A DNA stretch of 47,071 nucleotides, from positions 1 to 47,071 of the forward strand of contig JARYLV010000014.1 of the NCBI GenBank assembly GCA_029907465.1. Reading direction: 5' to 3'. This document shows, piece by piece, positions 23,411-46,956 of the stretch. This stretch comes from Methanomassiliicoccales archaeon (GTDB lineage: Archaea > Thermoplasmatota > Thermoplasmata > Methanomassiliicoccales > JACIVX01). A program made the position numbers and the translations under genes. Position 1 is the first letter of the stretch; each line of letters begins with the position of its first letter. The notes below the pieces were generated by a model. It saw only the letters and a program-made list of their open reading frames with translations, was not told where the DNA came from and ran no database searches.

Positions 23411-23504
23411 TGCCGCGGGCCGGATTTGAACCAGCGACTTCAAGATTTCTGATCTCCAGATGGGCAACTTCAGTCTTGCACTCTCCCAGCTGAGTTACCG
23501 CGGC
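23411..23504 (-). tRNA. tRNA-Phe (GAA) with intron
   Basis: Read on the minus strand, the acceptor GCCGCGG pairs with CCGCGGC, followed by discriminator A. The D-stem is ACTC/GAGT, the anticodon stem CAAGA/TCTTG, the T-stem GCTGG/CCGGC with loop TTCAAAT. The anticodon loop is CTGAAGA once a 21-base intron is removed, giving anticodon GAA. The mature length is 73 bases. CCA is not encoded. A TATA box (TTTATTA, plus 23534-23540) lies about 30-36 bases upstream. Confidence 0.93.
23447..23467 (-). other. tRNA-Phe intron (21 bases, position 37/38)
   Basis: The intron sits at the canonical site after position 37. CTGA of the loop pairs with TCAG inside the intron to form the central four-pair helix, with bulges AGT and AAA on either side. 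Cutting two bases into each bulge gives exons that join as CTGAAG-A. This is the strict bulge-helix-bulge form used by the archaeal splicing endonuclease. Confidence 0.85.
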
Positions 23505-39380: not shown

Positions 39381-42300
39381 TCAGAACTCATCGATAGAAT
39401 CGAAATCCTCGTCAGAGACCTCTTCCTCTGGTTCCCGCGGGATCATATCTTTGTCCTCGGTCACTTCCGCCATGTCGACCATTTTCTCTTCCTTCTCACC
39501 GATCAGGCGCGCGATGGCTGTAACCTTGTCGCCCTCGCGGAGCCGCATGATTTTCACGCCCATTGTCGCCCTTCCCATGACCCTGATGTCAGCAACGGGA
39601 ATCCTGATCACCATGCCTTGCGTGCTGGTCACAATGATTTCGTCGTTTTGAGCGACATCGAGAACTGAAACGACTTTGCCATTTCTTTCTCCAGTTTTAA
39701 TCGTAATGACGCCTTTACCCCCTCTCTTCGTCTTCCTGTATACAGACACTGGCGACAACTTGCCATAACCGTTTTCGGTGATCGAAAGAAGCATCGAGTC
39801 TGGCCTCACTGCCGCCATGCTGACGACCTCGTCGCCAGGGTAGAGTCTGATCCCGATGACACCTTTTGCAGGTCTTCCCATCGGCCTGACTTCTGTTTCG
39901 TTGAATCTGACTGCTTGGCCTCCCTTCGTTGCGATGACGATTTCCTTCGTGCCATCCGTCAGTCTCGTGTCGACGAGCTCGTCGCCAGGTTCGAGGCCTA
40001 GAGCGATGATACCAGACGATCGCACATGGGAATAAGCGGTGAGAGGTGTTTTCTTGATGATACCTTTTTTCGTCGAAAAAACAAGGTAATGATTTTCGTC
40101 AAATTCCTTGATGGGGATCGTGTCCAAAATCTTCTCCCCCTCCGAAAGCGCTGGTAAGAGGTTAACGATCGGTTTCCCTTTCGAGTGTCGACTGCCGACC
40201 GGCACTTGGTAAGCCTTCAGCCAGTAAGCTTTTCCCAAATTCGTGAAAAACATCAGGTAGTTGTGCGTAGATGTGACGAAGAGATTTGTCACGTAGTCCT
40301 CCTCCTTCGTCTCCATCCCGATCAGGCCGACCCCGCCCCTCCTCTGCTGCTTGTACATATCAAGGGGCACCCTCTTGATGTAGCCGTCATGCGTGATCAT
40401 GATGACCATTTCTTCATCCGGAATGAGATCTTCGAGATCCATTTCCAGCACGTCGTGAACGATTTCTGTTTTCCTTTCATCACCGTGTTTTTCTCTGATC
40501 TCGAGCATCTCTTTCTTGATAATATCCATGATCTTTCTTTCATCCGCCAGAATACTTTCTAGTTCCCGCACTTTCTTCTCGATCTCGATGAACTCGCTGC
40601 GCAGATTTTCGATTTCCAGACCTGTCAGGCGTTGTAATCTGATGTCAAGAATCGCCTTAGCCTGTTCTTCCGTGATTGCCAGACGCTGCATGAGTGCGAT
40701 CCTCGCCTCCTCAGGCGTCTTCGCCGCCCTGATCATCGCGATTGTATCATCGAGCGCGTCGACCGCTTTGATGAGACCTTGCAGAATGTGATCGCGCTTC
40801 TTCGCCTCTTCAAGCTCAAACCGCGTTCTCCTGATCACGACGCTCTTCCGGTAGTCGATGAAATGCTGGAGCGCTTCTTTTAACGTAAGAACTTTCGGCT
40901 CGTTGTTGACAAGTGCGAGGTTGATAACGCCAAAGGTCACTTCCATCTGGGTATGTGAAAAGAGTTGGTTGAGGACGATGTCCTCCATCACATCTTTGCG
41001 AAGCTCAATGACAATCCGCATGCCCTCGCGATCAGATTCATCTCGCAGATCGACAATGCCATCGATTCTCTTATCTTTGGCGAGTTCGGCGATCGATTCG
41101 ATGAGATTGGACTTATTGACCTGATAGGGAATCTCGGTGATCACGATTCTCTTCTTATTCTCTAACTCTTCAACCTTCGTCCGCGCTCTCACCTTTAGCT
41201 TTCCTTTACCCGTTGAATACGCTTCGAGGATGCCACTAATCCCGTAGATGATACCACCGGTCGGGAAATCGGGTCCCTTGATGTACTCCATCAGATCCTG
41301 CGTTTCCATTGATGGGTTATCAATCAGATGGACGATCGCATCGACGACTTCCCTGAGATTGTGAGGCGGGATATTCGTCGCCATGCCAACGGCGATCCCC
41401 GATGAGCCGTTGACGATGAGGTTCGGAAACTTGCCAGGGAGCACTGCCGGCTCCTTCAAACTCCCGTCAAAATTATCGACGAAATCGACCGTATCTTTCT
41501 CGATATCGGCCAACATTTCTTCCGCAATCGGCGAGAGACGGCACTCGGTGTACCTCATCGCCGCCGCTGAATCGCCGTCGACGCTACCAAAGTTACCCTG
41601 ACCATCGATCAATGGATACCGCATTGAGAAATCCTGCGCCATTCTCACAAGGGCGTCGTAAACTGCCATGTCGCCATGGGGATGATATTTACCGAGGCAG
41701 TTGTGCGAGACGATACCGTTTGCAACAAATTCATGCGGTCCTGCGACCTCGAGGTCATATGTCTTCTGAGGCTCAGCACTCTCTACGCAGTTTACGCGAA
41801 TGAAGAAGAGGTTGTACTGAAGAGCGTCCCCCAGCAATGGCAATTCTTCGCCGACCACATCGCCGATCAAATTGCAATCTGTTTCCTCATCAACCAACGA
41901 CAAGACCGATACTGGGAATTGCGATATTTGATCTGCGAGTTTGCAAGAAAGAGATTGATCAAGTTTACACCTTTCTCTTTGATCGATGAATTTGGCAATC
42001 TGAGAGCTAGACCACGCTACCTTATCGACGCTGGTCCTCGGAACCTTTTTCTTGATATATGCAAGAGGCGATTGTTCCGTGTCATTCCTGCCTTGACGTC
42101 GATGCCCAGTCAGTTTTAAAAGTCTTTCAGCGAACAGACCATTTACTTCGATTGCATATGCGGAATTGGCGTGAGTCTGATCACGCTCAACTGGCCTTTC
42201 GCTGGATTGTTTGTTAATTGGGGTTAGGGAAGCGATTACGCCCAGATGATGTAAAATCAGCTGGACATCGGCCGCCATTTTTCGCGATACAAAAGGTAAA

Positions 42301-43223
42301 CGGATTGATTCACTTTTAATAAGGGGATTGAGACCAGCATCAAGCATTCCTTTTAAAAGAGAAAGCAAGACATCACGAGGCGAGTGGAAAAGGGGCTCGG
42401 GAATGCCATCTTTTTCATGAATCAATTGAACGATCTGTTGAAGAAGTGAAGATGAGTCATCGGGAGAAATATGGGAAAGCGATCCATGACATAAGATAGA
42501 GGAGGTCGTGCCATCGGTACCTTTTCCGTTACAAGAAATCTGGTTCAGTGCTTTAGAGAGTTGTTCTTGAGTTGCATCATCACAAATGGTTAAAAACAGA
42601 TGATCTTTTTCCCTGGTCATCGAGTTCCGCATCAGGAGATAACCTAAAAGGTAGGCAATTTTCTCGTTGATTTCGATCTGCTTCCCGTCTTTCAATCGCA
42701 TGCTCGCATAACCAAGATTTTCTGGATAGATGCACCGTGCAACGACAAGATCTCCTTCCGTAAGATCTTTTGCAACCTTCCATTCGTAAGATAATGAAGA
42801 GTTGAGAATTTTAATCGGCTGCTCTGGTGTACAAACAATTTCTGCACCAGTTTCCAATCTTATTCTGACAAGCGGTTTCGGAGGCATCTCGTATAACTCG
42901 ATCACCGGTGCTCGTCCGCGGTGCGTGTAAACAATGTCACCGTGTTCAATCTCTTCAATCGGGATGAGACCACGATCAGTCAGCACCCGCGTTCCGGCAA
43001 CAAAACATTCACCAACAACACGCGCGCTCTTCTTGTGTGGTCTGTTCGAAAGGAGCCCCATATCGTACATCGCGTAAAGGATCCTTCTTTGAACTGGCTT
43101 GAGTCCGTCCCTGACATCCGGAAGAGCTCTGCCCACGATCACGCTCATCGCGTAATCGATGTAGGATTTCTTCATCTCGATCTCAATGGGGCGCTGGATA
43201 ATTCGCGTCGCTTTGTCTTCCAT
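39381..43223 (-). CDS. gyrA: DNA gyrase subunit A precursor with intein
   Basis: This 1280-residue precursor contains an 844-residue GyrA and a 436-residue intein (residues 73-508). The breakage-reunion domain has RPHKKSARVVGE before the intein and CLGKYHPHGD after it. The catalytic Tyr, in AAAMRYTECRL, is residue 122 of the spliced protein, the E. coli GyrA number. The GyrA box QRRGGVG is intact, which marks gyrase over topoisomerase IV, and the C-terminal beta-pinwheel follows. With GyrB it introduces negative supercoils. It starts eight bases after the gyrB stop, so the two form one operon. Confidence 0.95.
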   Translation of the reverse strand: MEDKATRIIQRPIEIEMKKSYIDYAMSVIVGRALPDVRDGLKPVQRRILYAMYDMGLLSNRPHKKSARVVGECFVAGTRVLTDRGLIPIEEIEHGDIVYTHRGRAPVIELYEMPPKPLVRIRLETGAEIVCTPEQPIKILNSSLSYEWKVAKDLTEGDLVVARCIYPENLGYASMRLKDGKQIEINEKIAYLLGYLLMRNSMTREKDHLFLTICDDATQEQLSKALNQISCNGKGTDGTTSSILCHGSLSHISPDDSSSLLQQIVQLIHEKDGIPEPLFHSPRDVLLSLLKGMLDAGLNPLIKSESIRLPFVSRKMAADVQLILHHLGVIASLTPINKQSSERPVERDQTHANSAYAIEVNGLFAERLLKLTGHRRQGRNDTEQSPLAYIKKKVPRTSVDKVAWSSSQIAKFIDQRERCKLDQSLSCKLADQISQFPVSVLSLVDEETDCNLIGDVVGEELPLLGDALQYNLFFIRVNCVESAEPQKTYDLEVAGPHEFVANGIVSHNCLGKYHPHGDMAVYDALVRMAQDFSMRYPLIDGQGNFGSVDGDSAAAMRYTECRLSPIAEEMLADIEKDTVDFVDNFDGSLKEPAVLPGKFPNLIVNGSSGIAVGMATNIPPHNLREVVDAIVHLIDNPSMETQDLMEYIKGPDFPTGGIIYGISGILEAYSTGKGKLKVRARTKVEELENKKRIVITEIPYQVNKSNLIESIAELAKDKRIDGIVDLRDESDREGMRIVIELRKDVMEDIVLNQLFSHTQMEVTFGVINLALVNNEPKVLTLKEALQHFIDYRKSVVIRRTRFELEEAKKRDHILQGLIKAVDALDDTIAMIRAAKTPEEARIALMQRLAITEEQAKAILDIRLQRLTGLEIENLRSEFIEIEKKVRELESILADERKIMDIIKKEMLEIREKHGDERKTEIVHDVLEMDLEDLIPDEEMVIMITHDGYIKRVPLDMYKQQRRGGVGLIGMETKEEDYVTNLFVTSTHNYLMFFTNLGKAYWLKAYQVPVGSRHSKGKPIVNLLPALSEGEKILDTIPIKEFDENHYLVFSTKKGIIKKTPLTAYSHVRSSGIIALGLEPGDELVDTRLTDGTKEIVIATKGGQAVRFNETEVRPMGRPAKGVIGIRLYPGDEVVSMAAVRPDSMLLSITENGYGKLSPVSVYRKTKRGGKGVITIKTGERNGKVVSVLDVAQNDEIIVTSTQGMVIRIPVADIRVMGRATMGVKIMRLREGDKVTAIARLIGEKEEKMVDMAEVTEDKDMIPREPEEEVSDEDFDSIDEF
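41700..43007 (-). mobile_element. GyrA intein (436 aa) with degenerate LAGLIDADG domain
   Basis: The intein begins with Cys (CFVAGTRVLTDRG, block A) and ends GIVSHN, followed by a +1 Cys. Block F is EVAGPHEFVAN. Block B reads CTPEQPI: the His of the usual T-x-x-H is Gln here. Two endonuclease-like helices are visible, AYLLGYLLMRNS and LLSLLKGMLDAGL, but the acidic metal-binding residue is gone or displaced in both. It therefore probably splices but no longer homes. It is inserted between Glu72 and the YHPHGD segment, the same site used by mycobacterial GyrA inteins. Confidence 0.92.
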
Positions 43224-46865: not shown

Positions 46866-46956
46866 TGGAGCCACTGGAGGGTTTCGAACCCCCGACCTAC
46901 GGTTTACGAAACCGTCGCTCTATAGCGATCACAGATTACCGCTAAGCTACAGTGGC
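46866..46956 (-). tRNA. tRNA-Thr (CGT) with D-loop intron
   Basis: On the minus strand the acceptor GCCACTG pairs with CAGTGGC, followed by T (discriminator) and a genomically encoded CCA. The anticodon arm is ACGGT-TTCGTAA-ACCGT, giving anticodon CGT (Thr). The T-arm is GGGGG-TTCGAAA-CCCTC. The D-arm becomes normal (GCTT-AGCGGTA-GAGC) only when a 16-base intron is removed. Mature length without CCA is 72 bases. A TATA-like TTTAAAA on the plus strand (46988-46994) lies about 35 bases upstream. Confidence 0.92.
46922..46937 (-). other. tRNA-Thr intron in the D-loop (16 bases)
   Basis: The insert folds as a complete bulge-helix-bulge. The D-stem GCTT/GAGC is the outer helix, AGCG pairs with CGCT as the central four-pair helix, the bulges are GTA and ATA, and ATC pairs with GAT inside the intron around a TGT loop. 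Cutting two bases into each bulge leaves the intron AATCTGTGATCGCTAT between tRNA positions 20 and 21. Confidence 0.85.

Follow-up and report, generated by a model that had tools for sequence, protein, structure and literature searches.

The window, i.e. the whole stretch of 47,071 nucleotides analyzed here, is contig C14 of a fragmented 1.72 Mb genome assembly and carries a tRNA-Thr(CGT) gene with an insert in its D-loop, only 115 bp from the contig end. The gene is composed of the following features:

46866–46956, minus strand: tRNA-Thr(CGT) gene with an encoded CCA at 46868–46866 (Rfam RF00005, 58.4 bits; same boundaries by ARAGORN)
46938–46956, minus strand: 5′ exon, tRNA positions 1–20 (bulge-helix-bulge (BHB) analysis; same junction in intronless orthologues)
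46922–46937, minus strand: 16-nt noncanonical intron AATCTGTGATCGCTAT between positions 20 and 21 (strict BHB; covariation; absent in family f5)
46869–46921, minus strand: 3′ exon, positions 21–73, anticodon CGT (Rfam match; ARAGORN call on the spliced form)
46917–46947, minus strand: BHB with outer helix GCTT/GAGC, central helix AGCG/CGCT, bulges GTA and ATA, inner helix ATC/GAT and loop TGT (BHB analysis)

The precursor thus reads GCCACTGTAGCTTAGCGGT, the intron AATCTGTGATCGCTAT and AGAGCGACGGTTTCGTAAACCGTAGGTCGGGGGTTCGAAACCCTCCAGTGGCTCCA, with the intron at a noncanonical position (20/21 instead of 37/38). The outer helix of 4 bp is the D-stem itself, the central helix likewise has 4 bp and both bulges have 3 nt. 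The initial annotation had proposed the 16-nt intron, its boundaries and a strict BHB with the D-stem as outer helix, and all three were borne out by the BHB analysis and by the orthologues. It had also warned that a standard search may miss or misfold the gene. ARAGORN indeed reports the right span with the wrong isotype, Ala(CGC), as long as the insert is present; the Rfam covariance model, however, finds the gene easily, spans it end to end and puts the insert in the D-loop. When AATCTGTGATCGCTAT is removed in silico, 72 nt remain, and ARAGORN calls this tRNA Thr(CGT). Archaeal EndA cuts after the second base of the bulge, which we assumed for the cut sites; their placement is uncertain by 1 nt (an A lies on either side), and the product is the same in both cases. 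A second intact tRNA-Thr(CGT), which the initial annotation had named as one part of the grounds for rejecting the intron, was not found in the 96%-complete genome, and neither was an intronless copy. Elsewhere in the window, positions 39381–43223 (minus strand) hold a gyrA reading frame of 1280 aa with an apparent intein of ∼400 aa after KKSARVVGE, which starts with CFVAGTRVLTDRG and ends with VANGIVSHNC.

A random 16-nt insert at this site would produce the identical BHB layout with a probability of about 8 × 10−4. Stronger evidence against chance comes from the orthologues: 56 distinct Thr(CGT) sequences keep one layout (in order, 4 bases of outer helix, 4 of central helix, a 3-nt bulge, the inner helix, 4 bases of central helix, a second 3-nt bulge and 4 bases of outer helix) while the sequence of the inner helix varies. 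For covariation, 36 distinct truncated sequences were scored. The three pairs of the inner helix were standard in 100% of cells compared with a mean of 68% when partners were shuffled, and none of 2000 shuffles reached 100%, a figure that is no strict probability as shuffling ignores relatedness. Pairing registers of the inner helix that had been slid gave only 11–36%. The central and outer helices contribute little covariation because they consist mostly of tRNA exon bases, which are nearly invariant. We found one compensatory change in the central pairs, C-G to T-A, and the outermost central pair is a non-standard A-G in 8 of the 36 sequences.

The tRNA-Thr(CGT) gene was read in 50 of 147 Methanomassiliicoccales genomes. 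The comparison with related genomes that the initial annotation had suggested gave a clear result: the intron is present in all 34 genomes checked from five families (f1, f2, f3, f4 and f6, our own genome included) and precisely missing in all 16 checked from f5, where the junction reads GGTAGAGC or its variants GGTGGAGC and GGTATAGC. The intronless orthologues of two f5 genomes (G075 and G119) score 68.7 and 71.0 bits with RF00005, compared with 58.4 bits for the intron-bearing gene. By elimination, f5 is probably Methanomethylophilaceae, since f4 has Methanomassiliicoccus records and f6 has UBA472. Matches with names put our genome in this order: the tRNAs of its own genus and family are identical to those of the MAGs LCB019-061, OWC_0006, OWC_0007 and DR5_59_6. 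A pattern scan over 84,980 species returned 50 matches, and 48 of these are genuine intron-bearing Thr-CGT genes on named contigs. Their records are labelled Methanomassiliicoccales or members thereof, Thermoplasmata/Thermoplasmatota or Euryarchaeota, with a single Methanomicrobia (DTU008). The two remaining matches were rejected as chance hits: one in Gaoshiqia (L135) is not a tRNA, and in the other, in Methanosaeta sp. (L130), the pattern spans upstream sequence into an ordinary tRNA. Sampling across class and phylum located the intron in two further Thermoplasmata lineages, f8 and f29, and intronless Thr-CGT genes in most other matching lineages; as the search pattern is strict, absences weigh less than presences. 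That noncanonical introns are uncommon in Thermoplasmatota agrees with what has been published, but the genomes show otherwise: most families of the order as well as neighbouring lineages carry the Thr(CGT) intron. In the f29 genome G244 (locus L151) the D-loop intron of Thr-CGT has 13 nt and lacks a real inner helix (bulge-helix-loop); EndA is likewise a single two-repeat gene there.

Hand curation of the 44 tRNA matches in our genome revealed ten noncanonical introns in nine tRNA genes, nine more than initially annotated. Six reside in D-arms, namely those of Thr(CGT), Thr(GGT), Ala(CGC), Leu(CAA), Val(TAC) and Lys(TTT), and four in T-loops: Lys(TTT) (L143, contig C33), Arg(TCT) (L144, C27), Arg(CCG) (L145, C8) and Lys(CTT) (L146, C25). 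Lys(TTT) accordingly carries two of them, and Arg(TCT) and Arg(CCG) each bear a canonical intron in addition to the one in the T-loop. Together with ∼17 canonical introns this amounts to ∼0.6 introns per tRNA gene; the archaeal average is 0.21 and Thermoproteales reach 0.84 (PMC8450103). One of the canonical introns lies in the window, where tRNA-Phe(GAA) at positions 23411–23504 (minus strand) is interrupted at 37/38 by 21 nt. As BHB scoring of single tRNAs often ranks false motifs high, intron positions were set by the fit of the mature tRNA and by orthologues; the intron mode of ARAGORN was not trusted for L009, L033 and L036, for which it gave wrong isotypes. The spliced forms of all nine affected tRNAs (9/9) are assigned the expected isotype by ARAGORN. 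This is relevant for annotation: with the introns in place the program misses seven of the nine genes and mislabels the other two.

In the T-loop introns the T-stem serves as outer helix and the TTCR of the T-loop as one half of the central helix (TTCR/YGAA). The motif is strict in all four T-loop introns and, among the D-arm introns, in those of Thr(CGT) and Ala(CGC). The introns of Leu(CAA) and Val(TAC) have an adjacent outer helix of only 2 bp, and at least two further introns are not strict on the exon side: Thr(GGT) (L009) and the D-arm intron of Lys(TTT) (L143) have unpaired bases between the D-stem and the central helix. In this genome, then, the position of the introns is free and the motif mostly strict.

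Several of these introns are shared across the order. In three families other than that of our genome, G001 has kept those of Thr(CGT), Val(TAC), Leu(CAA), Lys(CTT) and Arg(TCT), G018 those of Thr(CGT), Leu(CAA) and Arg(TCT), and G135 those of Thr(CGT) and Arg(TCT). The T-loop intron of Arg(TCT) is the second deeply conserved case in the order: its pattern matches 69 of the 147 genomes, many f5 genomes among them, and it forms a strict BHB whose inner helix is 97% paired compared with 72% after shuffling (0 of 2000 shuffles reach this value; 13 distinct arm pairs). An intronless Arg(TCT) copy in the f5 genome G075 shows the junction GGGTTCGAA-TCCCG. Besides the Arg/Trp cluster, G075 and G119 contain one long RF00005 match each, and nearly all noncanonical introns are gone from them. 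In the Arg/Trp cluster (L144, L239, L247, L252 and L293) tRNA-Arg(TCT) is followed in conserved order by a small basic reading frame, MKRSSRAWKKRG..., probably encoding ribosomal protein eL41, and by tRNA-Trp, which has a long intron with the box-like motifs TGATGA and CTGA.

We then turn to the enzyme. EndA of our genome is a single protein of 352 aa with two PF02778-PF01974 repeats. It is similar to the α′2 EndA of Archaeoglobus fulgidus across both repeats, and over its full length it also resembles a fused Methanopyrus construct. No separate gene for a second EndA subunit was found; the single gene contains two full repeats. The stretch in which broad-specificity enzymes carry an extra loop aligns nearly gap-free with the M. 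jannaschii α and the A. fulgidus enzyme, so that EndA appears to lack an insertion resembling CSL or ASL. At the sequence level the endonuclease is therefore of the α′2 type, and the simple homodimeric enzyme that the initial annotation had deduced from the strict motif holds to the same extent. Of 85 Methanomassiliicoccales genomes, 83 have a match to EndA, always with two PF01974 hits, and the f8 and f29 genomes are alike in this respect. The motifs FR(V/M/A/C)Y, H(S/A)xxL and GVKKE/GVRKE around the catalytic Tyr, His and Lys of the second repeat are conserved in 32 orthologues. EndA of f5 (L202, L203, L205, L206, L194, L196 and L198) reads RLSGGVKK or RIAGGVKK around the catalytic Lys, compared with an otherwise constant RLAHGVKK, and has a long branch; in a family that lost most introns this possibly reflects relaxed constraint.

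The anatomy, covariation and conservation of the insert, its absence in f5 and the type of endonuclease are best explained by an archaeal BHB tRNA intron at D-loop position 20/21 that is ancestral, spliced by an α′2 EndA and lost in f5, and we hold this reading with high confidence. In the precursor the D-stem would act as the exon-side helix, and the D-loop AGCG (from position 14 on) would pair with the CGCT close to the 3′ end of the intron to a central helix of 4 bp, leaving two bulges of 3 nt. EndA, one two-repeat protein presumably working as a dimer, would cut inside both bulges, and an RNA ligase would join the exons to a normal, functional tRNA-Thr(CGU). Most likely the intron already existed in the ancestor that Methanomassiliicoccales share with one or more neighbouring orders, and it would have been lost at the base of f5.

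Without splicing, the mature tRNA would carry the insert as an extended hairpin of the D-loop. This would fit the conserved hairpin of the inner helix and a D-stem that is still able to form around the insert. However, a retained hairpin does not account for the 3-nt spacing of the bulges in all 56 sequences or for f5 orthologues that lack exactly the predicted intron. Moreover, the genome encodes an intron endonuclease, and it has T-loop inserts that would ruin the T-loop if they stayed in place; these also have BHB form and are cleanly missing in a relative. We regard retention as very improbable. Even less credible is a decayed tRNA copy, one disrupted by an element or an assembly error. 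The contig end is close by and ARAGORN fails to call Thr, but the gene is the only Thr-CGT gene found, and its exons are constrained and its intron structure covaries over many independent assemblies. An artefact of the contig end is also disfavoured because orthologues occur in other assemblies.

A different question is whether a spliced intron owes its shared position to common ancestry or to repeated insertion into a hot spot, an alternative that concerns the history and not the mechanism. Position 20/21 could be such a hot spot because the D-loop AGCG supplies half of a BHB; other tRNAs of our genome with D-arm introns also use D-loop bases in the central helix, and the version in G244 is, with its 13 nt, much shorter. 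Against this, every genome checked in the five families has the intron, and its sequence is alignable within families. The EndA tree places f8 and f29 outside the order (97/89; the f29 branch is very long and the root is a midpoint root only) and nests f5 among intron-bearing families, so that a single gain preceding the order, followed by a loss in f5, is the simplest history. Repeated insertion hence appears unlikely, though less so than the two alternatives to splicing. Between orders, transfer or parallel gain of the intron is possible.

The Thr(CGT) intron itself is an ordinary case of a known kind of intron with a known mechanism; its interest lies in its conservation and its company, an order of Thermoplasmatota rich in noncanonical introns with an α′2-type endonuclease. 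Reviews link the architecture of the endonuclease to the possible positions of tRNA introns, and a methanogen order that combines an α′2 enzyme with up to ten noncanonical introns per genome is a natural test of their coevolution. A matched comparison inside the order is offered by f5, a family without the Thr(CGT) intron whose two surveyed genomes have also lost nearly all others. According to a review, euryarchaeal tRNA genes have one intron at the canonical position where the enzyme is of the α4 or α2 type (PMC4090602). We lean towards the view that α4 and α′2 enzymes limit the motif and not the position, so that the canonical-only rule would be half wrong. Introns in the D-arm and the T-loop would then have persisted in Methanomassiliicoccales and their neighbours from the common ancestor onwards, because the tRNA arms themselves provide the outer helix and one half of the central one, with AGCG coming from the D-loop and TTCG from the T-loop. 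A few introns whose exon side is relaxed, namely that of Thr(GGT) and the D-arm intron of Lys(TTT), suggest that this α′2 enzyme may be even broader than its class, without a CSL or ASL loop.

The main text of a comparative genomics study of Methanomassiliicoccales from 2014 is silent on tRNA introns (PMC4153887), and we found no description of tRNA introns of this order or of Thermoplasmatota in the literature searched, in which subscription journals were thinly covered. The lineage, the deep conservation and the coupling to an α′2 enzyme thus appear to be unreported in the searchable literature. Short BHB introns in D-arms and T-arms, several per genome and even two in one tRNA, are likewise known from Thermoproteota and Nitrososphaerota (Pyrobaculum, Thermofilum, Thaumarchaeota; PMC8450103, PMC3218864). 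However, these organisms have (αβ)2 endonucleases, and the breadth of the crenarchaeal enzymes is linked to the CSL loop, whereas the Thermoplasmatota enzyme described here is a single two-repeat chain that seems to lack the insertion. Methanopyrus kandleri and Methanothermobacter thermautotrophicus, listed as multi-intron exceptions, are also euryarchaeal methanogens with introns outside 37/38 (PMC4033280). There, few cases occur in single thermophilic species, while in Methanomassiliicoccales such introns are shared by most families and reach ten in our genome; in addition, EndA of M. kandleri is (αβ)2 (PMC6379350), unlike the putative α′2 type found here. ARMAN-2, likewise not a crenarchaeon, combines an ε2 EndA with introns whose positions vary (PMC12397907), but this EndA is a three-unit enzyme with a special loop and not a plain two-repeat protein. 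The closest counterparts are the α′2 enzymes of A. fulgidus (1R0V, 2GJW) and Thermoplasma acidophilum (2OHC), which like ours consist of one two-repeat chain with the triad in the second repeat and no CSL or ASL. Narrow specificity and a strict motif requirement have been ascribed to these enzymes, as to α′2 enzymes in general (PMC6379350, PMC12397907), whereas the predicted substrates of the EndA presented here extend over the D-arm, the anticodon loop and the T-loop.
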